The notes beneath the pieces are model-generated. The model was not told where the DNA came from. It ran no database searches and saw nothing but the letters and a program-made list of their open reading frames with translations. 64,000 nt of DNA from contig JBAMJV010001820.1 in NCBI GenBank assembly GCA_037951105.1, forward strand, positions 156,441 through 220,440, given 5' to 3'. The stretch is from Echinarachnius parma (Eukaryota > Echinodermata > Echinoidea > Clypeasteroida > Echinarachniidae). Below are positions 11,986 to 60,585 of this stretch, piece after piece; within the stretch, counting starts at the first letter, position 1; each line of letters begins with the position of its first letter. The translations under genes and the position numbers were made by a program.

Positions 11986-11987
11986 TG

Positions 11988-30340: not shown

Positions 30341-31876
30341 TTAGAGACAAAGAATCAATTTCTTCCTCTTTTTAAAGTCCAGTCGCTGAAATGCTACTGA
30401 CTGGCTTCTCAGTTCACTCTGACCAGCATCACCGCGATCACCTGGTCTTCTCGATCGACGACCACTCACTCGCGACTTCATCAAGCGTGAATTGCGACGA
30501 GGCCTCCACTGACGTCTCCTCCCAGCGTCACGTCGAACACGAGTCCGAAACTGACAACGAGCTCCTGCTCGCCATCTAGCTGCTCTGGCTCGTCGAACAC
30601 TGCGTCGTCGCCTAGTACCTCTCGCCCTGCGTCGACTGCCTTGACGACATGAAGAAGTTCTGGCCTGACGTCGACCACCTTGTCGCCTCTCCACCTGGGC
30701 AGCTTCCTCGACATCAGAAGACGCCGCCTCACAAAGCTCGACCCTCTCCTGGAGTGCAGGCTGAACATGCCTGCGATCACCTAGATCACAAGCTGAAACT
30801 GCAGAGGACTCTGCTTCATCCCTCTGGACTCTATCAGGTCTCTCGACTTCTAGCCAGCCGCCATCCGGTCCCCCCTCTGGCACCTCTTCCAGGCTCTCCA
30901 GCGCAGCTTCACTTTCAAAGTCTCTCTCCCGGATGGTAGGCGGAACATGCCTTCCATCATGAGGACTGGAAGCTGACAGCACCATCTCACCAGTTGGGCT
31001 CCTCCTCTCCTGGAATGCAGGCCGATCAAACCTGCGGTCATCTGGACCACAAGCCGACACCGCATCAGGGCTCACCAGGACATCTGCTCCATCACAACGA
31101 TCAAACCTGCGGTCATCTGGACCACAAGCAGACATCTCATCAGGCCGCACCAGGACATCTGCTCTCTCACCGCTTCCCGGTAGAGAAGTCTCCAGCCTGC
31201 CATGAAGCTCTGCACCACCAGATTGTTGCCGTCCAGCATGTCGTCCAGCTTGTCTGCCACCAGAGGATTGGTCTGCGACGCCAGAAGACATCATCCCGTC
31301 AAGCGCAGTCATCATCTGCCCGACGTCATCTTGGATGTCGTTCAAAGCCGTCGCCATCTCTCCGACCTTCTCTCTACTACCATGGTTAAGACGACCTTCT
31401 ACATCATCCCAAGGATTTCCACGAACACCTGGACCGAACATCACCGTACTCGAGCAAACACTCAAATCCCCTGTATCACTGATACCTTGTGATTGTGTTT
31501 GTACATGTATGCCTGAATGTCTTTTCCTTGTGTCACTTGTATTTAATGAACTTAACAAGCTATCTCCAACACTCACATCAGACTCACTTGCCTTCTCTTC
31601 ATGCTGTCTCCCCTGGAGAACCTTGATCTGTCTCTCAATCTCCTCCACTCTCCTTCGCAAAGCAAAATCTTCAACAAAGCTCATCGATGACTCCGGCAAA
31701 ACCTGCCTTGCCACCAGACTACTAACGATCAGTTTCCGGACCTTAGATCTAGTCATGTAGGATGTAGCCTCATTAACATAGAAGTACAATGCAATTTCCA
31801 ACAGATCATCTTTCCGCATCTCCATCAGCTTCTCCACGCTTGGACAGCAAACAAAATTCCTCAACGAATCAGACAT
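30341..31876 (-). CDS. Gag-like ORF of the LTR element, 511 aa
   Basis: The single long frame of the element. The N-terminal ~80 residues contain MRKDDLLEIALYFYV and TRSKVRKLIVSSLV, a helical layout like the N-terminal region of some invertebrate Gypsy-type Gag proteins (by resemblance only). A probable coiled coil follows (RRRVEEIERQIKVLQGR). The middle holds imperfect repeats built on SACGPDDRRFDR. The C-terminal part is strongly arginine-rich and could bind nucleic acid. I see no zinc knuckle, protease or reverse transcriptase motif. GC content is well above the flanks. It is not a host gene on present evidence. Confidence 0.65.
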   Translation of the reverse strand: MSDSLRNFVCCPSVEKLMEMRKDDLLEIALYFYVNEATSYMTRSKVRKLIVSSLVARQVLPESSMSFVEDFALRRRVEEIERQIKVLQGRQHEEKASESDVSVGDSLLSSLNTSDTRKRHSGIHVQTQSQGISDTGDLSVCSSTVMFGPGVRGNPWDDVEGRLNHGSREKVGEMATALNDIQDDVGQMMTALDGMMSSGVADQSSGGRQAGRHAGRQQSGGAELHGRLETSLPGSGERADVLVRPDEMSACGPDDRRFDRCDGADVLVSPDAVSACGPDDRRFDRPAFQERRSPTGEMVLSASSPHDGRHVPPTIRERDFESEAALESLEEVPEGGPDGGWLEVERPDRVQRDEAESSAVSACDLGDRRHVQPALQERVELCEAASSDVEEAAQVERRQGGRRQARTSSCRQGSRRRARGTRRRRSVRRARAARWRAGARCQFRTRVRRDAGRRRQWRPRRNSRLMKSRVSGRRSRRPGDRGDAGQSELRSQSVAFQRLDFKKRKKLILCL

Positions 31877-32798
31877 CTTGGGAATTTAAACAACACACTT
31901 GTGTCTCAAAGGAATACAAAAATCAGCATCAACAACTCCTTTCACGTGTTCACAACTCTCTCTCTCTCCTGTAAGCTTACCATGCAAAAACCTGCACTCA
32001 CTCACATGTGAACAAAATCTGGAACGCATCCAAACAAACAAATGACTTAACTAACCGATCCGGTTAACACGATGGATATTACTCGCAAGCAAATCCAACA
32101 CAGCAATCGTGAAGAATACACAACGCCACCACACATTTAACCAAAGTGTGAAACCTCCTGACAAACAAGAGAACATGCATAAAACCAATGCATCAAGGGA
32201 AAACAAAACCCTTCAAAATTTGTTCTACGAAAAGAACCCTAGTCGGAACTAGAACATGTTGGAATGCACACAAAACTGCACTACAACTGTACTACTGGTA
32301 CACTTCACACAATAAACTGTCCAAAGCTTATCAACACGTAATGTCCTGTGTAATTCTGCCAATTTCCGACAGCGACAACTATCCCGACAATCACATCACA
32401 GCCCCATCACTGCATCCAATGCAATTCTCCAATCAAAATAGCCCACATACACATACACTACAAATGTACCCTAGAATTCAATGAAAACACAGCACTTTAT
32501 TCCCGCAGTGCAACCCATGTACATGTTGATAAAACTAAACATCTGTACACGTAAGACTTGCATGTAGACGTACCACGACTATCAACGAACAGTCACCATC
32601 CAGCTACACACACATGCAACACCGCTGGCGCGCGCGAGCCAGAACCTTCGCCGCACCAAACGACCACCGACACCGAGTGACGCCTCCGCGGGGAAATTAA
32701 CACGCATGACTTCGAACGAAATACATCAACAAAAACCGGCCATATTACCTCTAAACTTGCAGAAAAACTACAAATTCTCCTGGCTACAAGCCCCCAAC

Positions 32799-33317: not shown

Positions 33318-34974
33318 TTATTTCGAGTACTTAAGCAATAACAATAATTTTAATTTACGTTTAAATACACGGAGAGAGGGGCTTGTAGTAATTTCGTTTG
33401 GAAGATCATTCCAGAATTTTGGACCAGAAAATAAAATAGTTTTTTGGGCAAATAGTGTACGCGTTCGTGGCAAATGAAAGGAACCACTCTGCCAAGTGTG
33501 GTAAGTATGACAATAATTATTCTTTTTAAATATTATCATAAAACCTTCAGGAAGTTCGTTATTGGACAATTTATACATAAATATCTCAATATTATACAAA
33601 TATAAGTCAGTTAGTTTTAATAATCTATTTGAATAAAATAATTATGTTGTGTGGGCATAGAAACCTGTTTTTATTAAAAATTATAATGGCTCGCTTTTGA
33701 ATTTTAACTAGTTTATCAAGTAATAATAATGAACTATTGCCCCATGCTAAAATTCCATAATATATGTATGATAATATCAATGTTCCAAAGAGGGTATGTA
33801 AAACAGTAGTAGGAAAAAAAATATGTTCAGGGAGTGAATTTATCGTGTTACTAAAAAACATATATTGTGTTTTAACAATATTTAATGACAATTTATTTAA
33901 ATGAATCCATTTCTGAACAAATTTCATTTCATTATTAACTATATTCTATAAGGCCTCTGGATCACGATGTGAATAAGAAAAGGTTAGAATCGTCCGCAAA
34001 AAGTATAAAAGATAGTATTTGAGAAGCATTAGGAAAGTCATTCATGTATATAATAAAAAAGAAGATGGCCAAGGAGTGACCCCTGGGGTACTCCACAAGA
34101 GACAAATCTGTGACCTGACTCGTGTCCATTCACAACAACAAATTCTTTTCTATTTTCTAAATAACTCCTGAACCAGTCCAACGTGTTACCACGTATTCCA
34201 TAATGATTTAACTTATATAATAATATATTATGATCTATTGTGTCGAAGGCCTTGGATAGGTCCAAAAATATTCCAACTGTATGTAATTGATCATCAATAG
34301 CATTTGCAAACTTATTAATACATGAAAGCAACGCATGGGTTGTTGAGTGTTTTTCTCTAAAAACCAAATTGTGAACTGGATAAAATTTTACTATCATTTA
34401 AAAATGTAAGCGTACGTGAATAAACCAGCCTTTCTAGAATTTTCGAGAGGGACGATAGCAAAGAAACTGGCCGATAATTATTTAAATCCTCACGACTTCC
34501 TTTTTTAAATATAGGGATGACCTTAGCGATTTTCATTTTGTCTGGTACTTTACCATTTTCGAGAGATAAATTCAAAATGTGTGTGAGAGGAGAAGCAATT
34601 TCACGAACAATATTTTTTTAAAGAAAGTTTGTAATGCCGTCGTATCCAGAAGACTTTTTCGTATTTAAATTTATAATTATGTCAATAACCTCTTGTTCGT
34701 GAATCGGAGTAAAGTATAACGATGAGGAATTTGTATCATTTAAATGAGTATTAAACTCACCATCTGTTTGTGGAATATTATTAGCAAGGGTCGGCCCGAT
34801 ATTCACAAAATAATTATTAAACGCTTCTGAAATTCCATTTTTATCCTGTATCAATTCATCACCACTAACCACCTGAGAAATTGTATCATTGCGCTTTTGA
34901 GGATGTAGTACTTTATTTATTACTTTCCAAGTATTTTTTAGAATCATTGCTATATATTTTAAATTGATTTCCAA
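33318..34974 (-). pseudogene. LINE-1 reverse transcriptase remnants
   Basis: Fragments in several frames: 34618-34974 (pre-RT region, SSGYDGITNFL), 34357-34575 (KVIPIFKKG, YRPVSLL), 34038-34397 (LDLSKAFDTIDH, GVPQGS), then the FADDSN box, 33625-33927 (thumb-like, AWGN) and 33318-33599 (C-terminus, GPKFWNDLP). Enough motifs remain to place it next to LINE-2 in the same broad group, but it cannot encode an enzyme. Confidence 0.8.
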
Positions 34975-36020
34975 AATAACTTGTCTTTGCAGCCTCTAAA
35001 ACCTTAGTAAGTATATTATGATATTTAGTATATTTACTCTTATTACTAGAAGTAGGTTTTTTCTTATATTTATAATATAATTTATTTTTCTTATTAATAG
35101 ATTTTAATGAAGAATGACTCATCCAAGGGTGTCTAGGTATTATAAAATAATTTTTACGTGACGGTTTCTGAAGCGGAATGATATTATTATAATTCGACGT
35201 AATTATATCCAAAAAATTACTATAAGCAACATTAATGTCAATAGAGTTAAAGACCACAGACCAATTAGCATTTAACAAGCTATTTCTTAATCTATTAAGA
35301 TTATATTCAGATAAGTCCCGGAAGCCTAAAACATAATTTTTGGGTAAATTCGTTTTAATGTGGGGAATAATACTAAATATCGGAAAATGATCCGATATAT
35401 CTGAGACCAAAATACCAGATTTAAGGTGAGAATTATCATTAACACATATATTATCTATTAGAGTATGAGATGTATCAGTTACACGCGTCGGTTTCCTTAT
35501 GAGGGGAAGTAATGAATTAAAAAGCATTATATTAACAAATTCATGACAATTGTTATTATCATTACAATTCAATAAATCAAAATTGAAATCACCCATTATG
35601 AAACTTTTTTTTATTAATTAAAGAAGGTGATATCAAAATATTCTGTATGATATTAAAGAAATTATTAATTTTAGAATGAGGGGGTCTATATATTTCACCA
35701 ATTATTATATTCTTATTACCAGCGGACTCTATTTCGATACAAATTGTTTCAATATCTTCAGTCATATATTTAATTTCCTTTAGTACTTTATATTCAAGAT
35801 AATTTGTAACATAAAATCCAACTCCACCTCCCCGTTTAGCAGTTCTATTATTAGTTATAAGAGAAAATCTATCAATACAAAACATGGAATCGGGGACATT
35901 GTTTAACCATGCTTCCGATAATCCTAATATAGCCGATTCGAACTTTAGTTCGTTTACAAGTCCAGAAAACTTATCAAAATTCTTGCTAAGACTTCTAATA
36001 TTTAGGTGCATCAATAACAA
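34913..36020 (-). pseudogene. LINE-1 endonuclease domain (two frames)
   Basis: APE-type endonuclease of a non-LTR element, which nicks target DNA. 35589-36020 carries the N-terminal half (EAWL, RGGGVGFYV, YRPP) and 34913-35596 the rest (MGDFNFDLL, SDHFPIF and a linker rich in K/S/Y). The two overlap in different frames at about 35590, so a frameshift lies at the GDFN junction. Confidence 0.8.
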
Positions 36021-36664
36021 TTCATCTTTAGCATTTGAACTCGAATTTGAAATTACCTGCTGTTCAGTAAAGTAAGCAGAAATATTATTATTTACAAATT
36101 AACAATTGGGCACAAAAATATATAAAGAAAACATGGCACCTTGACAGAAATAAAATATAACACACAAAAAAGAAGAGAAAATAAGAAATCATTCGGAGAA
36201 GCAGACCATAAATGGTCTTCCGGCCTCCGCCACACCACTGAATGATGAGTGAGGAAGATAGAAAATAAGTAAATTTGAAAATAAGAATGTCGAAGTAATA
36301 GCGAAGTATAGTATTAATAATAGCATGTAAGTCATTGCATAATTTGCAAAATTTATTTATTTATTTATTTCCAGTTTATTTCACTCATAAAAAATACAAA
36401 AATACAATTGAAACATGTATAACGACAAAACACATACTACAATAATTTACATAATAGTAGTATAAAAAAGGGTACATTTTGAGTGGGTGGCGGCCAGAAA
36501 TGAAAATAAATCCTTATAAACGGCTGACCCTGGAATTATATTTTAAAATACTACAAATTTAAAAGATTCATTTTTTATAACTACAACATAGAAAGAAGAA
36601 AAGAACAAAACAACAACAACAACAACCTAAGGGAACATACATGTATATCAAGTTAAAAGTATTA

Positions 36665-38704
36665 TTATACAGGAGAAGGAGTTTTAAGATATTGTTTTAA
36701 GTTACGTTTAAAAGAGTTCAATGAACACGATTTTTGTATAAATTCAGGAAAGGAATTCCAAAGTATTGGACCATTAAAGAAAATGGATTTATGAGACAAA
36801 TTAGTTCGTATTGGAGGTAAATGGAAATTTGCGGCATTTCTAGTGGCATAGGAATGAGTATTGCAATTCAATGAAAAACATGACAGAAGTGAATCTGGTA
36901 GTAAACCTTTAAAACATAAAAACATAAAAATTCCAACTTCATATTTAAACTTATCATAAAAATTAAGGATATTATATAATTTAAAGATAGGTTCAGTATG
37001 AGAATAAAAAGGTGAGTGATTTACGATTCTTATTGCACGTTTTTGTAGTTTATTCAGTCTATCTAAATAAATATTTGATGCACTACCCCAGGCAAGAATA
37101 CCATAATTTAAAAAAGGAGCAACAACAGTATAATAAATCATTTTCAATGCAAATTTGGGTAAGTAATTAACTTTATACATAATACCTATACTCTTAGAAA
37201 TCTTATTACAAACAGAATCAATATGATCTTTCCATAACAACCTATTATCTACTATTACGCCTAAAAACTTTAGAGATGAAACTTCTTTAATTATTGATCC
37301 TACTAATTCAATATGAATGTCATTTGTATCTATTTTTTTATTTGTAAAAATCATAAAATTGGTTTTAAGGACATTCAAATATTTCAAAGTTAATTTATTA
37401 CTAGATAACCAAGTTGTGACTTTCTGTAGTTCCTCATTAAATTGTAACTGTAAAGTAAATATATCATCATGTGCCATAAAAATACTAGTATCGTCTGCAA
37501 ATAAAATATATTTCAGTTTAGTTGATACATTGCACAAGTCATTTATATACAATAGGAATAAAAGGGGTCCAAGTATAGAACCTTGGGGCACTCCACATCT
37601 TAGCCCTTTAATCTGAGATTTGTTTCCATTAATTAAAACATATTGTTTGCGATTAGTAAGGTAACTTTTAAACAATTTTAAAACATTTCCTCTTATTCCA
37701 TGCTTTTATAATTTCTTTAATAAAATATCATGATCTAGAGCATCGAATGCCTTTCGTAAATCTAAAAATAACCCAATCATTATTTCCTTATTATCAATTA
37801 CCTTAGTTACTTTATGGATAAAATCAAGAAGTGCTGAAGATGTGGAATGACCCGCTCTAAAACCATATTGATTACAAGTTAAAATATGGCATTCATTAAC
37901 AACAAATAAAAGACGATTATATAAAAAAATTTCAAACATTTTAGAAAACACAGGTAAAATAGATATTGGTCGATAATTCGTTAAAATGTCAGGACAACCT
38001 CCTTTGAAAATTGGTATTACTCTGGCAACTTTAAGTTTGTCTATAAATTCTCCAGATGCCATGCATGCATTACATATCTCACATAATGGATAACATAAAT
38101 AATATATAGACTTTTTTATTACTTTCATATCAATACCATCATATCCTGCACTCGAATTATTTTTGAATTGTTTTACAATATCAATTATTTCACCTGGAGT
38201 TACAGGATTAAAAAATATAGATTTTGTATTATTAACAATAAAAGAAGTTACATCAATATCGTCAGACTGATCATAATTGCGATTCAAATTAAAACCAATA
38301 TCAACAAAATAATTATTAAAATATTCCGGAATTTCATTTTTGTCACTCACTTCTATACCATCTACTACAACCTTCTCTATGCTAATTGCTCTCTGTTCTT
38401 TACCTAATGCATTATTTATAACTTTCCATGTTTTATTCATATTACCTTGAGCACAACCAAATTGGCGTAAATAATATTCCCTTTTCGTAGATTTAATCTT
38501 GCTGGTCACACGATTACGTATTTGTTTATATACATTTTTTCTATATATGGTAGGATTTTTCAAATACAATTTATATAAGCGACTCTTTTTCTTTACTAAT
38601 TTATATATTTCATGTGTAAACCATGGTTTATCTTTTCTTTTCTTTTTTACCTTAATATTCTTAATTGGAAAACACTTTTCATATACATTTAAAAACTTTT
38701 GCAA
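36665..38704 (-). pseudogene. LINE-2 reverse transcriptase domain
   Basis: 37706-38704 contains the pre-RT linker, SSAGYDGIDMKVI, VARVIPIFKGG, NYRPISILP, NQYGFRAGHST and LDLRKAFDALDHDIL. After one stop, 36665-37675 gives LRCGVPQGSILGPLLFLLY, the catalytic FADDTSIF box, LKFLGVIVDN, YGILAWGSAS and a C-terminal GPILWNSFP region. It would copy the element's RNA at the nick. All core RT motifs are present and only the stop splits them. Confidence 0.88.
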
Positions 38705-38870
38705 AAATACACTATAGCATAAATTCGGATCTTTACTAATTTATATATTTCATGTGTAAACCATGGTTTATCTTTTCTTTTCTTTTTTACCTTAATATTC
38801 TTAATTGGAAAACACTTTTCATATACATTTAAAAACTTTTGCAAAAATACACTATAGCATAAATTCGGAT
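38591..38870 (-). repeat. Perfect 140-bp tandem duplication inside LINE-2
   Basis: CTTTACTAATTTATATATTT starts at 38591 and again at 38731, and the two 140-bp copies read identical by eye. Because 140 is not a multiple of three, the duplication shifts the LINE-2 frame at the endonuclease-RT linker. Confidence 0.92.
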
Positions 38871-39684
38871 CTTTCAAAGGAAGTGACCATCTGATTACCT
38901 GTAAAGCTTGAATAAAATTACATATATTATTATCACTTATATCACGCTTTTCAATATAATCATTGCACTTATTCATACTACATTTAACTTTACAAATACA
39001 ATAAATAGGAAAATGATCACTAAGATCGTTTAAAAATATTCCAAAGGACATTTGGCATGAGTCATTAGTAAATATGTTATCAATTAATGATACAGAAGTA
39101 GATGAGATTCGTGAAGAATAATGAATCAAAGGGAACATAGAGTGCGATAATAACAAATCTAAAAATATATTAACATATTGCACTTTTCCAATATTCAAAA
39201 GATTAATATTAAAGTCGCCAATTAAATATCAAACTTTATTTTCATTAAGAACTATATTTAAAACATTTTTTATAAATAATAAGAAGTCTGGTATAGACTG
39301 GCAAGGTGGTCTATAAATTGTACCAATTACAAATTTTTTATTGCACATTTGAGTCTCAATAAAAATACTTTCTACATACTCTTCATTAGAATCCAAATCA
39401 TAACGACGTTTATAACTTAAAGTGTCTTTTAAAAACATCCCTACCCCACCACCACGTTTTCCAATACGCGAATTACCTATGAAAGCATAATTATTAATAT
39501 TAAATAAATCATGTAGCGTATCATCATTAAGCCACGTCTCAGTAATTCCAATGACATGTGATTGAAAGTTTAAAGAAGATAAAAACGAACACAATTCATC
39601 AAATTTATTACATAAACTTCGACAATTAAAATGCAAGCAAGAAAAGTAAGTCTCTAATTCATTGGTAGTGTAGTTTGAGGTCAA
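38689..39684 (-). pseudogene. LINE-2 endonuclease domain
   Basis: 39229-39684 holds LHFNCRSLCNKFDEL, GITETWLNDD, KRGGGVGMFL and GTIYRPP. After one stop, GDFNINLL and 38689-39198 follow with SLIDNIFTN and LNDLSDHFPIY (the SDH active-site box). It is a target-nicking endonuclease of the APE class, with catalytic motifs present but the frame interrupted. Confidence 0.85.
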
Positions 39685-39784
39685 ACTTTCATTAAAATCC
39701 TCTATAGTGAAATATGATTGATTTGATGAATAGACGTGTTCAGAGTTTGGTGGACATACAAAGTCATGTAGTCATATACTAAAT

Positions 39785-44824: not shown

Positions 44825-44929
44825 ATGTTTTCCTGTGCAACTCTCATGATCTGATCCCCAATATTAATGGGGCACCGTTATGCAATATTGTGCCTCATTG
44901 TGACGATGGCTCAGACGAATTGAATTGCA
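44825..44929 (+). CDS. LDLa1 exon of a multi-module LDLa/CUB extracellular protein gene
   Basis: First recognised exon of the window's host gene: 105 nt, acceptor ATACAG, donor GTATGT, phase 1 at both ends. It encodes VFLCNSHDLIPNINGAPLCN and then IVPHCDDGSDELNC. LDL-receptor class A modules bind ligands extracellularly and are held by calcium and three disulfides. Here only four of six cysteines are present (positions 2, 4, 5 and 6 of the family), while the calcium-loop DGSDE is intact. There is no start codon or signal peptide, so upstream exons must lie further 5', possibly far off in the repeat-rich sequence. No database name is assigned. Confidence 0.85.
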
Positions 44930-45694: not shown

Positions 45695-46051
45695 ATTTTA
45701 CCATAGAGTTAGGTTCCCAAGTCCAGGTGCCTTCTCACAACTACCCGTCAAACTACCCGCCCGATGCGTACGCCCTTTGGACATTCAGCTTAGCGTCCTC
45801 GGTGGACTCTACCGATGCCTTCTTCAAAATCGATTTTGGACGTGTTTACATCGAACGTGGGGATTACCTTAAGATTGGGACAGGTTTCGATCCGACGTAT
45901 TCATCATCCTACGTTCAGTATGGCAATGAGATACATGGGTATCCTGGTCTTCATTTCCTCGGGGCGGAGCACTTGTTTGTTGAATTCATCGCGAATCCTT
46001 CAAGACAATGGCAGGGATTTAACTTGGCGATCAGCGTTGTAAGCATTCCAG
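45695..46051 (+). CDS. CUB1 exon (cysteine-free CUB-like domain)
   Basis: A 357-nt symmetric 1-1 exon (acceptor TTGTAG, donor GTAATT) of 119 codons. SHNYPSNYPPDAYALWTF matches the first CUB strands, RGDYLKIGTGFDP the central D-x-L-x-I strand, and LFVEFIANPSRQWQGFNLAI the final strand pair. CUB domains mediate protein-protein contacts in extracellular proteins and normally have two disulfides; this one has no cysteine. It lies 765 bp downstream of LDLa1. Confidence 0.85.
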
Positions 46052-46190
46052 GTAATTTAAGTATTTTTTGAAAAGATTATTGAAATGTTAAGTAATAATT
46101 TTTCATTCATACAATGTGTTGTTGCATAGGGTGTATCACCGTGATTGGAAGTAGATAGTTATTGATTAGCAGTCTGCTTTCAACATATAT

Positions 46191-47120
46191 ATAGCTCGTG
46201 ATCGCGTTATTTCAAGAACCGATTGACGGGTTCTCACCAAACTTAGTCCATGTTTGTATCGTGTGGTGCCTATGATCTGATTAGATTTTGGGGTAATGAG
46301 GTCAAATGTCAAAGGGCTCATTATATATGCAAAAATAGCTCGTGATCGCGTTATCTCAAGAACCGATTGACGGATTCTCACCAAACTTGGTGTATGTATG
46401 TATCGTGAGATGCCAATGGTCTGATAAGATTTTGGGGTCATGATGTCAAAGGTCAAAGGTCACAGGGCTCATTATACAGGGTGGCCCACAAATAACGGAA
46501 CGGGGTACTTGCCATACTAAAGACTCATGATGCCCGCCATACTGCATCGAGTAACGATCAACCGTGCGCCATTGTGAGTGTGCGTTCAGCTGTGTATAGA
46601 GAAGAAAGGGTACTTACAATGGCGCACGCATTGAACGTTACTAGTTGCTATGACGGGCATCATGTGTCTTCATTATAGCAAGCACCCCGTTCCGTTATTT
46701 CTGGGCCACCCTGTATATGCAAAAATAGCTCGTGATCGCGTTATCTCAAGAACCGATTGACGGATTCTCACCAAACTTGGTGTATGTATGTATCGTGGGA
46801 TGCCAATGGTCTGATAAGATTTTGGGGTCATGATGTTTTAAGGTCAAAGGTCACAGGGCTCATTATATACAAAAATAGCTCTTGATCGCGTTATCTCAAG
46901 AACCGATTGACGGATTCTCACCAAACTTGGTGTATGTATGTATGTATCGGGGGGAGGGGGGTGCCAATGGTCTGGTAATATTTTGGGGTCATGAGGTCAA
47001 AGGTCAATTGTCACGGCTCATATATGAAAAATAGCTCATAATTACGATATATATCAGATCTGGTAGACAGATTACTATTCAAATTGAGTTGACGAATTCA
47101 TTTTAGGCATCATTTTCGAC
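46191..47120 (+). repeat. Intronic tandem array, 144-156 bp unit, about five copies
   Basis: ATAGCTCGTGATCGCGTTAT (or a variant) starts at 46191, 46335, 46725, 46875 and, worn, 47031. Units share AAGAACCGATTGACGGATTC, CACCAAACTTGGTGTATG and TTTTGGGGTCATGA. The second unit is split by a MITE. The array lies in the intron between CUB1 and LDLa2. Confidence 0.9.
46475..46715. mobile_element. MITE M1, 241-bp copy inside the tandem array
   Basis: Ends TACAGGGTGGCCCACAAATA and TTATTTCTGGGCCACCCTGTA, flanked by TA. The neighbouring array units show the empty site (CTCATTATATATGC). The interior is itself a palindrome (GATGCCCGCCATA / ATGACGGGCATC), unlike the 524-bp copy, so this is a foldback deletion form. 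Confidence 0.9.
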
Positions 47121-47639
47121 TGCGCGCAGTCGAAGATCCATCTAGTTTATAATGTGCTTCATTGTGTCCTTAAATACAATGGACGAGGGTTTGATTCCCA
47201 ACTGTTGCAAGTGTGCACTTCAGCTATCATGTATATCAATGCTGATCCCAACCTAGAGGGTGTTGCATGAAGAGTTGTGATCAATCGGCAAATTGCGTTT
47301 AAACGCAATACATGCAATAAACGCACTTCAGCCAATCAGAATTGTGTACTCAGTTGCATTGTCTGGTTTGCGTATAGTTGCAATATTGAAATCGATCGCA
47401 AAATCTTTATGCAACGCATATGGTGTAGTTTTGGCGTATATGTCAGGGATGTATTCATTCGAATGATTGATGCGGTTCATCCATTAACACTGTTTTTCTC
47501 GATACAACAAATTATCTGCTGTTGGCATTTTTAAAATTTTCCATGTTGCGGTCGAGTTGAGGGAAATACTGATACGGTAAAGAGATTGTTGAAGGGCCGT
47601 CACAAAAAAAAATAAAAAAAGAAAAATAGAAAAAGTACC

Positions 47640-48010
47640 AGCGAGCAAACTGCTCATAATTCCTTAGCACAAGTAAATAAACGGACCCGCTCGACCACTG
47701 CGACTCACAGGCATTCGGATCCGTATCACGATCACTGCGGGCTCCGCCGCGTTTTTTAGGGTCGGCCGACGTTCGCAGGGCACCGAAACCTGCTCCTAAA
47801 TTCAGCGATTTTCGACCGACTCCTTTGTTTACTGATGGGCGACTTATTTCTGATCACTGATGTCCATAAAGGGTTCGCCCAAGCCCCGTCCAAAATGTGA
47901 CAGAGAGCGAAAAATACGCTCGACTCCCTGGCGGATTTGAAATTCGGCGACTCTCTGGCGATCTATAAATTCGGCCGGGGTCCGTTTGATTTGTGACGCA
48001 GGCCTTCAGT
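47640..48010. other. GC-rich intronic patch of unknown nature
   Basis: About 370 bp between CUB1 and LDLa2 is clearly GC-richer than the introns around it, with many CpG (CCGCCGCG, GGTCGGCCGACG). I see no open frame with a domain, no terminal repeats and no convincing Pol III box. It could be an old SINE-like repeat or a retained regulatory patch. Confidence 0.3.
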
Positions 48011-48049
48011 GCGCTGTAACATAAAAGTCAGCATCGCAGCTGAGCTTGA

Positions 48050-48511
48050 AGGGGTAGTTCAGTTTTGGTATACAGGGCGCTGCACGAATTTGTTTTTTTT
48101 GTGAGATAATGAAAAACTGAGTGTCAAATTTTAATGGCAGCATAAACTTTATTTGATCACAATCAATTCAGAAACGGCTGAAATATCAATACAAATATCT
48201 GATCGTATAAAATCTGGGCCCCAGATGTATTCCATGACTTGTGTTTATGCTTAAACTTTTTCAAACATTTTCAAAAGAGATTTTTAATTAGTTGTTGATG
48301 ATTTTCCTATTCAATAAATATTTCAACAGAATATTACATGCATGATTTTGGATAGAAAATGGGTGAAACAAATGATAACAGTCTTTTTACTTAGTCGTTT
48401 GTAATTTGTTATACCTTTCTAGCACGGTGGAGTTATAACCATTATTTTGTAATGTTATTGTGCATGTTTTGGTTACTTAAGTCCAGCCTTACTAAAAACT
48501 GTACGACACCT
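48050..48511. mobile_element. TTAA-family MITE, 462 bp, intronic
   Basis: The left end AGGGGTAGTTCAGTTTTGG follows TTGA rather than TTAA (one change). The right end ACTGTACGACACCT is followed by TTAA. The interior matches 17857-18391 in reverse orientation (GCGCTGCACGAATT, GAAAAACTGAGTGTC). Confidence 0.8.
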
Positions 48512-48669
48512 TTAATGCAAGGTAAAATTTGCAAATTCTATATACATTGAACAGCGCTTTTAATAAATTGTAAGCAAATTATACCGCTTTATAGTAAATT
48601 GTGTGTATTAATATTGTTCAAAGATGTCATATAATTATGATCGTTTTGATAACCTCCCTTTTGTTCAAG

Positions 48670-48768
48670 ACCCGTTCATTTGTGACGCACAAACGTACGC
48701 AACATCGCAAAGCTCTGTGTGTGACCTGGTACCCGATTGCCACCGAGGAGCAGATGAATTTGACTGTG
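48670..48768 (+). CDS. LDLa2 exon
   Basis: A 99-nt 1-1 exon (acceptor TTCAAG, donor GTAAGA). It encodes PFICDAQTYATSQSSVCDLV then PDCHRGADEFDC. It has the same four-cysteine pattern as LDLa1. The calcium loop is altered here (HRGADE instead of DGSDE), so calcium binding may be weaker in this copy. A longer chance frame begins upstream at 48624 with an ATG, but its first part reads through the acceptor tract and is not needed. Confidence 0.82.
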
Positions 48769-49590
48769 GTAAGAAAGACAGCCATTCATTTGTTTATCCA
48801 ACGTAACCATCATGATACGTGTTTAGTTTGTTTAGTCATCTTGACCCTTACACCGCTCTTTGACATGCCTTGTTTGTCCGTCCGCAAATATAAATAGTTT
48901 GGTACGTATCTTACACATTGTAATGAAGTTATTATATTTCTCTTTAGCGTTGTAATGAGTCATTCTAACCTAAGAACCCCCTCCCACCAAATGTACGAGG
49001 TATTATACTGTTTCAATTTTGAGCACATTAGATAAAATGTAGCCTTTTACCGGCGAATATTATGTTGCTGTATTCTCAGTACTATCATCCCTCACCTCCC
49101 TGTGGTCAACCGTCGATTAACTCCACTTATCATAATTGACACGGTTTTTTTTTACTTACTTGATTCACATAAGAACGGTATAATGTAATCTATACGTTTT
49201 AAGGGATAGATGGGATAAATTTAAAAGAACATTTTTAATGACAGAATAAACTTTATTTGATAAAAATCGGTTTAGACACGGCTGAAATATCCATATTTAG
49301 TATAAATATTGGCATAATGCTGTAGCTTTAATGCAAGTACTTGGCACGTTATATAATCGACCCTGTGAATTATGCACATGTGTGCTCTTTTATCCAGATC
49401 ATACGTACATTAAGTTTGTTGATACAGTCTGTTATATACCTGCGAGTAATGCCCTTCCCCCTTTTCGTCATTATCAAACGTGTTGAATTTCAAATTCGCA
49501 AAAACATATAAAGCGTGATTCTAATTAAAGTTCATATTGTTTACTAGAGCAAAGCTCATTCAGATTGATGTTCCTTATGTCCCCCCTCAG

Positions 49591-49950
49591 TTCATGAGCT
49601 AAGCCTTGGTGGTCCAGCGATTCAAATAGCCTCTCACAATTACCCATCTGAATACCCACCTGATGTCAACGTTCTGTGGAAGTTCATATATGCATCCGGG
49701 CAAGAAACTGAGGGCATCTTCTACAGGCTTCTCTTTGGGAACATCAATATAAACCACGGAGACGGTCTGGAGTTCGGCTCAGGTTGGAATCCCGATAATT
49801 CAACGGAAATTGGTGACTACTCTGGTTACTACTCTGGATCCGCCCGGGACAGATTCATAATGGCAGGAGAAATGTTTGTCTTATTCTTCAGCAACTACCG
49901 CGATCAGTCATCCGGATTTCAACTTGAGATAAGCATTCAAAATATTTCCG
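49591..49950 (+). CDS. CUB2 exon (cysteine-free CUB-like domain)
   Basis: A 360-nt 1-1 exon (acceptor CCCCTCAG, donor GTAAAT) of 120 codons, lacking any early ATG and so easily missed by ORF callers. SHNYPSEYPPDVNVLWKF, GDGLEFGSGWNPDN and MFVLFFSNYRDQSSGFQLEI line up with CUB1. No cysteine. It ends ISIQNISG at the same place where CUB1 ends VVSIPG. A small patch rich in G/S/Y (GDYSGYYSGS) replaces the variable loop. Confidence 0.85.
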
Positions 49951-50122
49951 GTAAATACCTTTCTGCTTATTTGTTTTAATCCTAACTATGCATGTAATAG
50001 TCGTATTACAGACGTTGCAATTTTCTTAATAACATAACATTTTTATTATAGGATTAATACTATCATACAAATAGTACATGGTTTGGAGTTGAATAAACAA
50101 GAATATACACTACTAAAACTTA

Positions 50123-51429
50123 CACTGTTGGTCTTATAGTTCGAATATTTTTTGATAGATACAACTTCATTCTTTAAACCTATTTTTGCGCCAAATGAAC
50201 CATTTTAGAATAAATAAAAAAATTATTGTATAATGTTTCCAAACTACCAATGTACACTAAATGGTTGCATGGATTCGCATTAATTAGTTAAGTCTTTTGT
50301 GCTGAGCTTCAAAAGGCAGGACCTTTGATGATTGGCTCATTTCCTACTCCAAAGCGTATGTCCAACAAGTCATCATTATGTTCTTCAGGCTTCACTCCGT
50401 CCAACGCCATTGACTACACGCCAAACGATGCGTGTGCTCCACCAGGAAGGGGTATCAACAAGCAATGTCCACTACTTCGTTGAAACATCCCCGTTTACGG
50501 TCTGTAAAATGCTCGGACCTCATCGAGAGGAGGTTTGACCGCTAGACCGTCACACCCTCAAGTCGTTATGTGAATGGAGAAATGTTGGAGCTTCTCGTCC
50601 CGTAATCGAGGAACTGTTTATTTTCCATCTGTTCGGTCAAGGATGTTATGGCCCATACCCATTAAAATGACATATAACTAGTGTCTAGGCGGCAATCTTC
50701 TTGGCTGCCTAGTCCAGGGACGTCCGGTAAATCTCGGTTGCATGGTTTGGAGTGGACTCTTGTTAGTTTGTCTTGCTCGATGACCACGTTAAAGCGATCG
50801 CTGACGTCTAGCAAAAAGCGTTAATTCCATAGTTTCTTCTAGACAGCAAAGGCTCCTTTTTCAAATGTCTGGTTTAAACGACGCAAGTTAAGCAATTTGC
50901 GATGATTTACCCTGCTGGTCAATCGTGGACGTCTTATGGATTCCCGTAGCTTTATTTGACCCTCTCTCGATGACCATGATGACGTCTGAGTATTTTAAAG
51001 ACCATAAACTGCGATGTTCCAACGAAACAGTGGAGTGGGCAGTGCTTGTTGACACCCATTCCTGGTGGAGCACAAGCATCGTTTGGCGTCTAGACAATGG
51101 CGATGGACGGGGTTTGGCCTAAAGAGCCTCTGTGCCAATTTTAGTTGAAAATTGTACAGCCAACTCTGATAAATGACACTTATTGATGATTTGTTGAACA
51201 TACGCTTAAGAGAGGGAAAAGGGCCCATCATCGAATGACCCGCTCAAAACAAAATGATAGATTAATGAATGCAAATAATGCAATCCTTTATTGTATTTTG
51301 GTAGTTTGGAAACTTTATAAGATCATTATTTTTAGTCTAAAATAGAGATAGTTCATGAGGCGTAAAAAATAGGGAAAATAATGAAGTTTGATCTAAGAAA
51401 AAAATATTACAACTGTATGACCAACAGTG
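50123..51429. mobile_element. TA-flanked element with long inverted arms, 1.3 kb, intronic
   Basis: The ends CACTGTTGGTCTTATAGTT and AACTGTATGACCAACAGTG are flanked by TA (50121-50122, 51430-51431). Further inverted matches extend inward: TTTCCAAACTACC against GGTAGTTTGGAAAC, and GCGTGTGCTCCACCAGGAA against TCCTGGTGGAGCACAAGC. Ends of this form are typical of Tc1-like elements. The frames across it are shadows of the palindrome, and no transposase catalytic motif was seen. Confidence 0.75.
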
Positions 51430-52021
51430 TATTTAAAATTTCTCTAGTGCATGCAGAGGCCGCACGTAGGTCAAGTGTGATACGGTAAATGTGTACTTAT
51501 GGGTACTCACTACATTATTACATGCTGTAGCAGCCAAATTGTAATCAAAGAACCCAATATGGTCCTCTTGAAATCATCTACATGTTTGTTTGTCAGGTGA
51601 GTTTTTTGAAAAGGTTGATGGAGGCCATTATATGCCATATATTATTATTGATCAAAGACCGGTCCAAGTACCGGTTAGTACCCGGCCCCGTCGGCCTATC
51701 TTACCGTTGCCGTACCGAACAACCGCGTGCAATGTCTTTTTTTTTAATACAAAGATCATCCTTAGTTTGTTAAACTCTCAATTAAATGAACTTCTCGCTG
51801 CAGTAAGTACGCACGACTCAAATTGAAAACGCTTTGACGTCCTTGGTGTTCTTGGAAATCCATATTGGTAATTCATTCACCAATTATATCTTCCTCCGAG
51901 AGTCGGAAAATGTATATTTCCACGATCAGAATTTGCTAGAATGACCCGGTATTTTTATATTGTCGTTCGTTTAATTGTTAGTTTGTTCACAGTTACCATT
52001 AAATATAACCCTGTTATAATA

Positions 52022-52359
52022 CCGGGCGTATCAAACAAAGCGTAACACTTTTGAAAAAATTGTCAACATTACATTTGTATATATTTATCAGATTTTTTTC
52101 ATGTCGATGGATGCCCAATGGTCTCATCTATCAAGTGCCACTAACAAAACACATTTTCGTTCACGCTTGGCCGAACACTGACAGTTTTTGTACAGAGTGT
52201 CAAAAATGGCTTGCGCCAAATTGAAAGAAGCGGGACAATTAAACCACTTGATAGATGAGACCATTAGGCATCCATCGACATGAAAAAAGCTTCTAAATAT
52301 ATCAACATGTAATTTTGAAAAAAAATTCAAAAGTGTAACGCTTTTTTTGATACGCTCTG
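52022..52359. mobile_element. Foldback MITE, 338 bp, TA target site, intronic
   Basis: CGGGCGTATCAAACAAAGCG is mirrored by CGCTTTTTTTGATACGCTCTG. The arms continue through a TCATGTCGATGGATGCC segment and its complement (about 52098 and 52268). TA lies at 52020-52021 and 52360-52361. The loop is about 100 bp. Confidence 0.85.
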
Positions 52360-52875
52360 TACAGTAGACCATAACAACATCCGATAGGCTATACATAAAT
52401 TAATTACGCAGCGGCAATCAACCAAAAAATGTACTGCCTTAGTTATGATGTCACAAGCTTATACTAATATATTGCTGAAATATACCTTAACTCAAATACC
52501 TGGACTTACATGTGACAATGCAAATCAAGTTTTTTTAATGCTTTAAATGATGTTAACTTAAAAAGAACATAGTAGACGTAAAAGTAAGGAACATTACAAA
52601 CTTTATCTCGATTATAAACTCGATAACCTGGACTTACATGCAACTTATTATAAACGGGAAGGAACATCAGCTTAAAAGGATTATAATAGGCATACTTAAA
52701 TAATACAATCAACATGCTTTAATCTTAAATATCTGCCAAATGTTCTGTAATATATTTACCGAGTATTCGAGTGCCTTCGATTCGTTATTGTGTTTAATTA
52801 CTAGACGTTATTACTAAATATCATTCGAAGATCATAATCCACGTTTTTTTAATGTTTATATATATTTATTTCCAG

Positions 52876-52974
52876 GTGTCTTCGTGTGCGAATCTGGTAC
52901 AGATCTTACCCCTCTAAGCACTGTATGCGACCTCATTCCTGACTGTGAAGACGGCAGCGATGAGAAAGGCTGCA
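52876..52974 (+). CDS. LDLa3 exon
   Basis: A 99-nt 1-1 exon (acceptor TTTCCAG, donor GTAAGT). It encodes VFVCESGTDLTPLSTVCDLI then PDCEDGSDEKGC. This is the copy closest to a canonical LDLa C-terminal half, with the complete CD...DC-x-DGSDE box. Cysteines 1 and 3 are absent. Confidence 0.87.
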
Positions 52975-53268
52975 GTAAGTATAAACTGCAGCTACTCTGC
53001 ATTGTGGTTTGCCATCCATGTAGTCATTTACCCACCTGGAAAGTGGTATATCCTTTCGTAAGAGTAACAAACATTCATGCATTATACTTGTTCTAGAGAT
53101 TTGCATAATCACATATATTGGTCACCCTCCAGTCTTAATGATAAAAGGTGGCGATATTATTATGTTTTACTTACTTACTGGAGCCGGGTTTGATTGGTTT
53201 CCGTTCAATATGTGATTACCCATCTCCAAACCACAAAGTCGGGTACGAGGGTTCTCGGGCAAACTTAA

Positions 53269-53590
53269 AGGAGTAGTTCAGTTTTCGTATAGAGGGCGCT
53301 GCACGAAATCATTTTCTTGTGAGATAATGAAAAACTGAGTGTGAAGTTTGAAAGAGTATAGAATTTTAAAAGCATAATAAACTATATTTGATCAAAAAAG
53401 GTTTAGAAACGGGTGAAATATCAATACATGCATAATTTTGTATGAAAATAGTTTCAAACCAATGCTTTTTAGAAAGGGCCCTTTTGTGTTTGATAACAGG
53501 CTTCTTACTTTAAGTTAGTTGTTTGTAATTTTCTAGATCTTTCTAGCATGGTTTTGCATTATTACAAACTATTAGTTTGTAATGTTATTG
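53269..53590. mobile_element. TTAA-family MITE, right end lost
   Basis: TTAA at 53265-53268, then AGGAGTAGTTCAGTTTTCG. Similarity to 48050-48511 runs to about 53590, where MITE M1-like sequence takes over. Confidence 0.7.
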
Positions 53591-53599
53591 TGCGGGATT

Positions 53600-53917
53600 T
53601 CATAGCGCCGAGCAACCATGCACATTCGCTCGACACACGGCTGAATGCACACTAATAATAGCGGGCGTATTGCTTATTGTTCGAACGTTATGACAGGCAG
53701 TAAGTGCGGTTTATCAGGCACTGACTTGGTACAAATTGACAAAAATGGGAACCTGACATCAGTCACTCAGAGCGCCCTAAAACAAAAATCAAACTTCCAA
53801 AATGACTGATCCTGATATCGTCTATCATTGGAATAGACACCCTATCCTGTTGACATAATCATTATGTTGCTATATTTTGGGAAGTGCCCTGTTCCGTTTC
53901 TTTTGGGCCAACGTGTA
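53600..53917. mobile_element. MITE M1, truncated copy
   Basis: The right end reads CCCTGTTCCGTTTCTTTTGG then GCCAACGTGTA. The interior (GGCTGAATGCACACTAATAA, GACATCAGTCACTCAGAGCG) matches 4710-5233. The left terminus is missing, replaced at the junction with the TTAA element. Confidence 0.7.
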
Positions 53918-54088
53918 TATAGGGGTAAATTTATTCGAGATAAAACAAAAAATGAAATGAGAAGCCTACCACAAGCTTGCATTGGTCCACATTTGGCACT
54001 TCGAATGTAAAATGCAGAACAAATTTTAACACACTAAGAGTCATGTAAGTAATTAAATGAATGTATGTTTATTTTTTCCTTACCATAG

Positions 54089-54457
54089 GCATAGATATTG
54101 GCCCCGAAACAACCGTGCAGCTGTCTTCACATAACTATCCCAACGGCTATTACCGTAATTCCTACGCGCTCTGGACACTAGACTATTCTGGCAGTGAAGA
54201 CACACACCTCTTCTACAGGGTTTCGTTCATTGCCAGGACACTGTATTCCAACGATATGTTGACATTTAGCTCGGGCTGGAGCCCGGGGACGAATGGCGTT
54301 ATATCGTATTCATACCAAGATAATAATGAATATAAGAAAGACTTGTTTATTAAGACCGGACAAATCTTCATTGAATTCAACGCTCGTCGTCCCAAGACGT
54401 ATCATTCTAGCAACAGCTATAAATTCCAAATAGACATCACCACCGTGAACGTTTCAG
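54089..54457 (+). CDS. CUB3 exon (cysteine-free CUB-like domain)
   Basis: A 369-nt 1-1 exon (acceptor ACCATAG, donor GTAAAT) of 123 codons. SHNYPNGYYRNSYALWTL, NDMLTFSSGWSPGTNG and IFIEFNARRPKTYHSSNSYK mark the CUB frame. The Y-P-P of the other copies is replaced by Y-Y-R, and the last loop is basic (ARRPKTYH). No cysteine. The exon ends NVSG, giving an N-V-S sequon. Confidence 0.87.
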
Positions 54458-54459
54458 GT

Positions 54460-56380
54460 AAATAAATGCTGAATTATACATAATTTAATTAAAGTTATTC
54501 GAAGATAAGTTCAATATAATGTAGCTACAGATGTTTGATATCGTTTTACCTTTGGCCAACATTGTAGCTAGATCTGTCAAGGTTTAAGATTGTTAAAACA
54601 ATTTCAGAATCTGGAATATCTGCAAAACTTGTCGCCGACTGTATCAGAGAGTTACTGTATACATAGTCGCGGAATGAGTTAAAATTGAAATGTTGGCCCA
54701 CTTTATGACGTGTATAATGATTTGTAGAAGATTTCGTTTCCCATGTCATTCCCATCATGCCCCTCCCCTCCCCTCAAATTTTGAATTACCACATGATAAT
54801 CATTAAACCTACTTTGCATATTTGTGTTGCAATTTTTGGCAAAACTCTAATAATCGTGTTTTAATTTTGATCGTCATTAACCTCTCTTTTATAAACTTAA
54901 CATAACACCAAAAAAAAAAACAATTGAAAAGTAGTGTTTTTGAAATATATATTACTTCATGGATGACCGAGATAAAATTAAAGCAAAATTATGAAATGTT
55001 AAACATTAAATTCAAACATACCGAGTGGAATTAACAAAGGAGGTTTGCGTAAACCGTGTTTTAAACCATTGTCTACATCTATGGATGCAATTTGTAAACT
55101 GATGGAGAAAGAATGTTAACTCCTTACTTGTTAACAATGTTGATGGTACACATTTACCAAAGGCACCAACAAAATGTTTGTCTTCTCAGATAGTGATATT
55201 TGCTGTTTAGCATGCACTAAAAGTCATATCATAACAAATTATAAAATGTTTTACTTTAATAATTTGTAGTAATATGACTGCACTTAAGAGATGTAGACCA
55301 TGATTTAAACCATCGTGATGGTTTAACACACAAACCTCCTTTGTGAATCCGAGCCACTTTCTCTAGAAAAGTTGATTTGCCCTGTTCCTATAGCTACTGA
55401 CTAATCGAGCATTGAAACATGGTTTTATGGGATCACCCCCTAACATTTAAAAGAGTCTTTGTGGGTTATAATGGGCTGAGCAACCACCTAGCAATTCGGA
55501 GGTCTCGGTTTCAAAACCCCAAGCGTATAGCCTATTTTCTTTGCTCACTTTTCAATTTTAAACAGCGCAATATTTCATGAATGAATGGTTGTGCAACAAC
55601 ACATCTGGTTCAATGAATCGCCAATCTAGATGTTGATGCATTGTTGTAATTAATTGGCAAGGAAATACGACAGACAGCTGAACGGCTAAACGCTAAACCA
55701 CTGTTGTTGTTGCACATTGCACAATTATTAATTAAATCTGTCATTTTTTCAACCGGGCCATTATTACTTTATTTTGCTCTCAGTTATCTATCATGTAATG
55801 GATATCTCTCTAAAAATAATACTTTAGAAACTATGAAAAGATGCTTAGGGGTACTTGTTGTGTTGGGTTACTACATTAATGTTGTATCATCAACAAGCAT
55901 TTACTTTATATTGATGCCTCATGTGAAATGGTTATGTGATAATGGAATGTGCATTACAACTGAATATGGGGCCGACTCAAAAACGAAATGTTGCAAAATG
56001 GATCATTTTGAATTTGTCAAGAGTAAAATCTCCTTTTTCTTTGGAAGATATCTCCTTTTTCTTTGGAAGATAGAGTGATCGAGTTGAGGCGAACGTTTAT
56101 AAATGAGTACAGTGTTGTCTCCTTTTCTTTGACATTTGCAAAATGCAATTTTTGACTTTGCCCCATGTTCAGGCATCAAGCGCATTCCATGATTCCGTAA
56201 TCATTAACAATCAGGCATCAATGTAAAGGGAAATAAACGTGCCTTCCGCGAAATTTAAGTAGGATTATTTTCAGGGGTTTATATTATGTGCAAGAATTAT
56301 CAGCCAAAAAGAGGTTATTATTGCCAAATGTTCATGTTTATGATCATGATTAATTGTAAAATTACTATCTTGACTCAACT
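54460..56380. other. Intron between CUB3 and LDLa4; no gene recognised
   Basis: AT-rich intronic sequence. A 124-codon frame at 55704-56078 has hydrophobic runs but no recognisable family, and its end carries a short direct repeat (TCTCCTTTTTCTTTGGAAGA at about 56030 and 56050). I do not call it. Confidence 0.5.
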
Positions 56381-56386
56381 GAACAG

Positions 56387-56485
56387 GCCTATTCGGTTGC
56401 GACTCGTCAACATTTTTTACAAATGCTAGCTCTGTGTGTGACCTGAAAGCAGAATGTACTGATGGTACAGATGAGAGGGATTGTG
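56387..56485 (+). CDS. LDLa4 exon
   Basis: A 99-nt 1-1 exon (acceptor GAACAG, donor GTAAGT). It encodes LFGCDSSTFFTNASSVCDLK then AECTDGTDERDC. Four cysteines as in the other copies, with DGTDE in the calcium loop. N-A-S is a potential glycosylation sequon in the loop where Cys3 would normally sit. Confidence 0.86.
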
Positions 56486-57072
56486 GTAAGTGTATTATTT
56501 TGTTAAGCTCAGAGGTAATTATATCGAGTAAAACTATGGCGACAAGAATAATCATAACCATTAGTAATACATGTAGTTCTAAACAATGTCAAGTATGGCA
56601 GAGATGTGTGACCTGGCTCCTGCAAAGGAGGCACTCGTCCTCACCCAACCCATTAATATATCAACAAAACAAATCAAACGCAATTTTTTTGAAAAAATCA
56701 TTACGTTTTTACGCAAAACATACGGTGACACTGCTTCGGTACGAAACCATGAAGGTTTTTTTTTTACGCGATCTGTATACTTTTAGTGGTGTAAAAGCTA
56801 TAATTGTAAGTCTACACGTTACGTAATCCATAACGTTTGAATGCAAAATTAATTGGTAATTCATACACAGTGGATGTGCCAATCACTGTTGCAGGACACT
56901 AGTCGTTTTAATGACATAATATTGGCTAAGTACCTATCATCCAAAACAATTCATGGAACGTATAACTGTTATTGAAAATGCAAAATTGCGAGTCTGAGGT
57001 GAATGAACCTTTGCTTATTATTCAACCTTTGTTTGTTTACATCATGTCCTCTCTTGTGTTTTGTTTCCGTAG

Positions 57073-57444
57073 GATATGAACTTATGGTTGGCGACAGCAT
57101 ACAGCTAACATCTCACTACTATCCTTACCCCTACCCGCCCAATGCCTACATCCTGTGGACATTCCAGTATGCCAACGGAGAAGATCCTACCGACATGTTT
57201 TATCAGATATCGTTTGAGCGCATCGAACTGGACTATTATGATACTTTGAAAGTCGGCAAAGGCTGGGACCCTGATCAATACCGATATGTTAGCGTCAGAG
57301 GATATTACGATAACTACGGTAGTCTAGGTCTCAGGTTTATTGAGGCTGAACAAAATATGTACGTAGAATTCTTCTCTGGTTCATATAATCGGCATGATCA
57401 ACGCACTGGTTTCGACCTGTCCATCAACGTCATCTTCATTCCAG
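57073..57444 (+). CDS. CUB4 exon (cysteine-free CUB-like domain)
   Basis: A 372-nt 1-1 exon (acceptor TTCCGTAG, donor GTAAAT) of 124 codons. SHYYPYPYPPNAYILWTF, YYDTLKVGKGWDPDQY and MYVEFFSGSYNRHDQRTGF give the CUB pattern. Rich in tyrosine, no cysteine. It ends VIFIPG, very like CUB1. It is the last intact CUB exon in the series. Confidence 0.87.
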
Positions 57445-58301: not shown

Positions 58302-58400
58302 ATGCTTTCGTGTGTGATATCGGTACTTTTGTCACAACAACATCATCTCTGTGCAACTTGGAAGCGGACTGTTCTGACGGAACAGATGAAATGAAATGCA
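58302..58400 (+). CDS. LDLa5 exon
   Basis: A 99-nt 1-1 exon (acceptor TTTATAG, donor GTAAGT). It encodes AFVCDIGTFVTTTSSLCNLE then ADCSDGTDEMKC. It has the four-cysteine pattern and DGTDE loop, with CN in place of CD after the fourth family cysteine, as in LDLa1. It is the last module exon that is open throughout. Confidence 0.86.
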
Positions 58401-60166: not shown

Positions 60167-60228
60167 ATAAGCACGCTTAAACGGTTTTCTATTCATAATC
60201 ACATTCTTGATTGTTCATTTTCTATAAG

Positions 60229-60585
60229 ATCATACACTGTCTCTTGGCGATGAGGTTCAACTTGCGTCTCACGGATACCATCAAACTACAACCGAACTCG
60301 TATGTCTTTTGGACATTCGCATATGCATCTGAAGATGTTCCGGCGGATGTGTACTCCAGGGTCTCCTTCCAATATGTATACCTCCACTATGTGATGTGCT
60401 AGAAAGTTGGCTCCGGGATGGAATCCAAACGCCCAACCTTCTGCCATCATTCTCGGGATACAATAACTTCATAGATCCACTGGACAGACCATACGAGCGG
60501 GGATTGTTTAGTAGATTCGATGCTGATTCACGCTCAGAAAATCGGGGTTTTACTCTCAAAAAATCACCGTCCGCAATATTACAAG
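60229..60585 (+). pseudogene. CUB5 exon, frame-damaged
   Basis: Bounded by ATAAG and GTACAC, 357 nt, the same length as CUB1. The pieces line up with a CUB-like module but in changing frames: TLSLGDEVQLASHGY, then PNSYVFWTFAYASEDVPADV with YSRVSFQYVYLHY one frame over, then VGSG/WNPNAQ fragments, then RFDADSRSENRGFTLKK back in the first frame. In-frame stops occur near 60400. The net length is kept, so insertions and deletions cancel. Either the module has decayed or the assembly has base errors here. The donor GTACAC is weaker than in the intact exons. Confidence 0.7.

Follow-up and report, generated by a model that had tools for sequence, protein, structure and literature searches.

We report a strictly alternating array of LDLa and cysteine-free CUB exons in the echinoderm Echinarachnius parma that, in our assessment, probably encodes the N-terminal, likely ligand-facing part of one giant protein of the mucin-4-like (MUC4-like) family. 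The array lies in a 64,000-nucleotide stretch of genomic DNA (assembly GCA_037951105.1, contig JBAMJV010001820.1, positions 156,441 to 220,440 of the forward strand), which we refer to as the window and whose end is exactly the end of the contig. From LDLa1 to LDLa5, nine exons (five LDLa and four CUB) follow one another in strict alternation, all with GT-AG splice sites and all flanked by phase-1 introns on both sides, and the array goes on 3' of LDLa5 into a fifth CUB and a sixth LDLa, both of them broken. The exons, in window coordinates, are as follows.

44825..44929, plus strand: LDLa1 exon, 35 codons, 4 cysteines
45695..46051, plus strand: CUB1 exon, 119 codons, no cysteine
48670..48768, plus strand: LDLa2 exon, 33 codons, 4 cysteines
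49591..49950, plus strand: CUB2 exon, 120 codons, no cysteine; chosen for structure prediction
52876..52974, plus strand: LDLa3 exon, 33 codons, 4 cysteines
54089..54457, plus strand: CUB3 exon, 123 codons, no cysteine; alternative acceptor possible at 54095
56387..56485, plus strand: LDLa4 exon, 33 codons, 4 cysteines
57073..57444, plus strand: CUB4 exon, 124 codons, no cysteine
58302..58400, plus strand: LDLa5 exon, 33 codons, 4 cysteines
60228..60583, plus strand: fifth CUB, with frame changes and stops here; open in a related contig, C14535
61479..61584, plus strand: sixth LDLa, with one frame change and one stop here; open in C14535
62584..62831, plus strand: EGF-like exon, with frame changes here; open in C14535

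The original prediction, made from the letters of the sequence, had described one domain per exon in regular alternation, with 33–35 codons for each LDLa and 119–124 for each CUB, and the nine exons with their splice sites, phases and boundaries bear this out; LDLa1 and LDLa5 fall just beyond 45695..57444, the interval given for that observation. On the same contig, upstream of the window, three further CUB and two further LDLa exons alternate in the same 1-1 phase, separated from LDLa1 by a 49-kb gap containing open frames like those of long interspersed nuclear elements (LINEs), and the two groups may belong to one gene or to two. Chance open frames were ruled out as an explanation by the splice sites and phases, by relatives across the genome and by purifying selection, and a unit restricted to the window was ruled out by the relatives on other contigs and the upstream copies on the same contig.

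We observed no cysteine in any of the four window CUB domains with open frames (4/4), as had been predicted, while two conserved disulfides are usual, though not universal, in CUB domains. CUB2, CUB3 and CUB4 are 30–41% identical to CUB1, and the residues invariant across all four include S-H, Y-P, L-W, D-x-L and F. Matches to the Pfam CUB profile (PF00431; C1r/C1s, MASPs, PCPE-1, cubilin) lie above the curated cut-off for CUB2 (E 2.3e-6) and CUB4 (2e-4) and below it for CUB1 (0.0023) and CUB3 (0.079). An AlphaFold2 model of CUB2, built from the four window sequences alone, reached a mean predicted local distance difference test score (pLDDT) of 72.4 and a predicted template modelling score (pTM) of 0.70. 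When this model was used for a fold search, all 42 Protein Data Bank (PDB) matches at E ≤ 0.001 were entries of CUB proteins, classed by entry title and with complexes taken as whole entries rather than single chains; they include C1r, C1s, MASPs, PCPE-1, enteropeptidase, neuropilins, TSG-6 and MAp19, with C1r CUB2 at the top (3.5e-5). The first non-CUB match, a bacterial haemagglutinin, appeared at rank 43 (1.1e-3), and a profile of the four window CUBs searched against solved chains ranked MASP-1/3 first (1.9e-5). The proposed CUB-like identity is thus upheld by both profile and predicted fold, and another beta-sandwich family was ruled out by the uniformity of these PDB matches. The window domains share the sequence signature and the predicted fold with PF00431, but differ from it in the complete lack of cysteine and in an S-H-N-Y-P motif in place of S-P-N-Y-P.

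The LDLa modules, which start one codon ahead of F-x-C, share with Pfam LDLa (PF00057) the core F-x-C ... C-D-x-x-x-D-C-x-D-G-x-D-E-x-x-C, but all five (5/5) have four cysteines, with the first and the third of a standard set of six absent. In a canonical LDLa those two are paired in a disulfide, and therefore one whole disulfide is gone, not half of one. Pfam matches (E 8.8e-8 to 0.0059; one of five above the curated cut-off) cover profile positions 7 or 8 to 37 only, and the best PDB match is the VLDL receptor (1.5e-9). The earlier description of these as minimal LDLa modules therefore stands in that they are real, matching the profile with its acidic calcium-box core, but it had overlooked the loss of a cysteine pair.

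In searches of the 1.2-Gb genome that used CUB4 and CUB2 as queries, we considered the best 150 of 416 and the best 150 of 419 candidate places, respectively, the worst of which had E-values of 8.8e-19 (CUB4 query) and 8.1e-21 (CUB2 query). Merged by hand, the listed places of both searches show that at least 50 contigs carry CUBs of this family. Loci that we read closely are the best matches, not a random sample; in them, 39 full-length CUBs matched the family profile, two of which, on C5269, are of another type. The remaining 37 family CUBs, on 18 contigs, are without cysteine in 36 cases and have a single cysteine in one. Similarly, 42 of the 44 LDLa modules on array contigs have exactly four cysteines, the other two being partial matches (of 47 LDLa matches found, three whose contigs have no listed family CUB were left out). 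Four further cysteine-free CUBs of this genome with good Pfam scores were aligned with the 37 family CUBs, and both groups share the positions S-(H for P)-N-Y-P, W, F, D-x-L and G-F; the Asp of D-x-L is present in 36 of the 37 family CUBs, and the Glu of the canonical CUB calcium site is, by eye, mostly absent. Cysteine-free CUBs with strong Pfam matches (E 2.8e-16 to 3.5e-15) occur elsewhere in the genome at L045 (C2880), L055 (C14607), L056/L057 (C5269), L059 (C1577) and L065 (C4708), with a four-cysteine LDLa near the C14607 domain; these domains may link the family to ordinary CUBs.

The family CUB exons are under purifying selection, with a ratio of non-synonymous to synonymous substitution rates (dN/dS) of 0.29 among nine CUB2-type copies and 0.28 among eight CUB4-type copies. 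Amino-acid changes are concentrated in a few loop segments, peaking at alignment columns 51–60, 71–90 and 101–110 (101–120 in the CUB4 type), and most indels of both types fall in columns 71–90 and 101–110 (again 101–120 in the CUB4 type), with synonymous changes also high in the last stretch. In a tree of 41 CUBs, domains from the same array position on different contigs cluster together with bootstrap values of 99–100, forming CUB2-type (9 rows, support 100/98), CUB4-type (8 rows, 100/99), CUB5-type (4 rows, 100/100) and CUB3-type (2 rows, 99/100) clades; CUB1 and several other CUBs are long branches whose placement is unsure. Because CUBs cluster by position across contigs, the two-exon units of the array are older than the gene copies, and the branching pattern indicates that recent amplification has been of whole genes or segments, not of two-exon units. 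The original prediction of amplification by two-exon units is accordingly only partly retained: phase 1-1 exon pairs fit it, but the units are old and the recent copying appears to have been on a larger scale.

The evidence for a longer protein comes from the relatives of the window array. On the minus strand of C411, the copy that we read furthest, the last CUB is followed downstream by a four-cysteine LDLa and then by EGF, NIDO, AMOP-like, VWD, C8-3_MUC4 and EGF-like exons, in this order. Pfam matches were obtained for the first EGF exon (EGF_3, 1.5e-13), NIDO (7.4e-7), VWD (5.8e-6), which opens with F-G-D-P-H, and C8-3_MUC4 (1e-6). The EGF exons have phase 1 on both sides wherever both ends could be placed, and the NIDO exons are in other phases. 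Among the EGF-like exons after C8-3_MUC4, one has a Pfam match below the cut-off, and another was recognised by eye in the following 1.5 kb, in which no membrane anchor was reached. Three pieces of the NIDO region and two later VWD pieces on C411 gave no Pfam match.

This arrangement recurs across the genome. Searches with NIDO (100 matches) and C8-3_MUC4 (68 matches) were evaluated using 35 NIDO matches, selected by hand, that correspond to the one exon covering the C-terminal half of the domain. Sixteen of the 35 lie on the CUB-bearing contigs (at least 50), against a chance expectation of 0.6 under a generous bound of 400 kb per contig. All 16 share the strand of an array; 15 of them lie 3' of one, 10.8–25.3 kb past the last listed CUB. 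A C8-3_MUC4 match follows further downstream on the same strand after all 16, and after 32 of the 35 overall; the match of C411+ is below the curated cut-off, as is one at position 65933 of C1617, on the same strand as the array of that contig, whose CUB4 is the closest to the window CUB4 among the matches listed (89%). Since NIDO and C8-3_MUC4 exons are co-linear with, and 3' of, related arrays, the arrays are probably the N-termini of giant MUC4-like proteins. The LDLa–CUB order proposed originally is real, but a longer protein probably follows, of which the array would be no more than the N-terminal portion and not the complete architecture.

Several observations weigh against this assignment. 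That the CUB and MUC4-type exons are joined is deduced from their order, strand and phase, no transcript having been seen, and among the exons read there was no signal peptide, first exon or transmembrane exon. In the window copy, NIDO, VWD and C8-3 exons are absent up to the contig end; in a tblastn comparison of the C411 EGF, NIDO and VWD exons with the window, only the broken EGF exon matched. On C411, the AMOP-like stretch scored E 0.0095, under the cut-off, with a query piece containing one mistyped residue, the longer exon was unmatched, and two EGF-like exons match Pfam below the cut-off. One of the 16 NIDO exons, on C361, is upstream of the listed array, the matches listed include no C-half NIDO exon for 35 of the 50 CUB contigs, and for 19 of the 35 C-half exons the contig has no listed family CUB. 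Within the CUBs, dN exceeds dS in none of 36 CUB2-type and none of 28 CUB4-type pairs. Lastly, CUB5, LDLa6 and the EGF exon of the window are broken by frame changes or stops, and dN/dS between the window and C14535 is 0.60 over the 489 codons of seven exons.

Some of these points favour other explanations. That no transcript joins the two kinds of exon, that the window copy is without MUC4 exons and that so many CUB contigs have no listed NIDO exon would suit arrays that are separate genes, secreted or otherwise anchored, with the MUC4-type genes as mere neighbours; we regard this as improbable, given the agreement in strand and the near-uniform downstream position of the NIDO exons, within 25.3 kb, and given that on C411 the interval is filled by EGF exons of the same strand and phase. 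The broken exons, which are open in C14535, and the elevated dN/dS raise a more serious possibility, which we nonetheless lean slightly against, namely that the gene in the window is a pseudogene, with functional genes only among its relatives. The two copies are otherwise similar, with window positions 44.9–62.8 kb aligning to C14535 in long blocks of 79–91% identity, introns included, with gaps. Against a pseudogene, the LDLa1–LDLa5 stretch has open frames and good splice sites in each of its nine exons, the breaks could be explained by assembly errors, and C14535, despite its open fifth CUB, sixth LDLa and EGF-EGF exon, itself has a frame change in its CUB1. The window copy may thus be decaying, or may contain assembly errors.

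A further alternative accepts the MUC4-like proteins but makes them structural, as components of skeleton, extracellular matrix or a surface coat in which CUB repeats join matrix parts without recognising varied ligands. In line with this, selection on the CUBs is purifying, a protein labelled 'Cub/Ldlr domains' (PMI_027828) is entered in a table of the sea star skeletal proteome (PMC5460417), and a mucin4-like protein is recorded from a coral skeleton (PMC4890752). Dozens of gene copies and variation centred on loops exceed the needs of a plain matrix part, which is an argument and not a test, and we consider the structural alternative doubtful, without dismissing it.

Under the MUC4-like assignment that we prefer, the LDLa–CUB pair would be a symmetric-exon unit, in which LDLa, a small knot short of one disulfide, would serve as a linker, and the CUB beta-sandwich would owe its stability to its core instead of to disulfides. 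A string of such units would precede the EGF modules and a MUC4-type base made up of NIDO, AMOP-like, VWD and C8-3 domains, with the LDLa–CUB, EGF and MUC4-type exons presumably joined in one transcript and the protein presumably tethered to the membrane. In canonical CUBs, loops of the variable kind hold the calcium site and ligands; in this family the loops, as the site of amino-acid changes and most indels, might recognise a range of partners, whether microbes, cells or matrix, on the surface of an epithelium or of coelomocytes. One report (PMC8660890) describes MUC4 as presumably cleaving itself at GDPH inside VWD, and a cut as proposed there could leave the CUB arm attached to a stub that stays tethered. 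Taken furthest, this would describe an unnamed repertoire of recognition receptors, with dozens of MUC4-based genes, each with several disulfide-free, variable-loop CUBs, directed at many microbes or cells, and with the arm shed or held through GDPH self-cleavage; we put this forward as a speculative and, on balance, unlikely extension.

With regard to known systems, we found no description of (LDLa-CUB)n on a MUC4-type base in open-licence full-text literature, subscription papers and the gene databases of named animals being outside the scope, in agreement with the original statement that no named family is known to have this exact architecture. CUB and LDLa occur together in one protein in Neto, LRP3/10/12, matriptase and enteropeptidase, but with few modules and ordinary cysteines, and these proteins, which differ in this from the window family, are not known to carry NIDO or VWD. 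With MUC4 and MUC4-like proteins (NIDO-AMOP-VWD-EGF), the C411 copy shares NIDO, VWD with GDPH, C8-3_MUC4 and EGF-like exons in the same order; the family differs in its N-terminal (LDLa-CUB)n and EGF arrays, in its many gene copies, in the sub-threshold AMOP and in the absence of mucin Pro/Thr/Ser tandem repeats among the exons seen, in which the N-terminus was not found. The nearest design that we found in print is that of cnidarian mucin4-like proteins, in which CUB is N-terminal to NIDO-AMOP-VWD; there, CUB occurs with ZP and FN3, and the passages concerned mention neither alternating LDLa nor cysteine loss (PMC9080433). What is known is the MUC4-like base, and what is new is an N-terminal design for which we found no name, together with disulfide-poor modules. 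If our reading is correct, a MUC4-type base, which belongs to an epithelial membrane mucin in vertebrates, gave rise in an echinoderm to a large family whose binding arm is modular. The family would also offer a natural example of extracellular domains that do without disulfides, through which the stability of CUB and LDLa folds could be studied, and a set of many genes that is testable for a role in immunity, adhesion or skeleton.

Additional features were noted in the same genome. At G000:C11645:29427-45882, ten CUB exons with almost the same score, most of them spaced at 1.73 kb, form a young tandem array of another CUB type, and on G000:C11368 and G000:C2555 LDLa exons that score normally in Pfam are densely packed in tandem. 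In the window, minus-strand open frames at 34618-39771 resemble, by eye, LINE endonuclease and reverse transcriptase, apparently from two elements, and a 514-codon open frame at 30341-31885, also on the minus strand, may belong to a mobile element. At 5547-12037, recurring open frames rich in Pro and Thr, like PPRTITPQDNYPPRQLPP, are probably a minisatellite. On the mitochondrial contig, COX1, tRNA-Arg, ND4L and COX2 follow in this order on one strand, the arrangement of echinoderms, by which a mollusc was rejected as the source, with TGA at Trp codons (ND4L and COX2, by eye).

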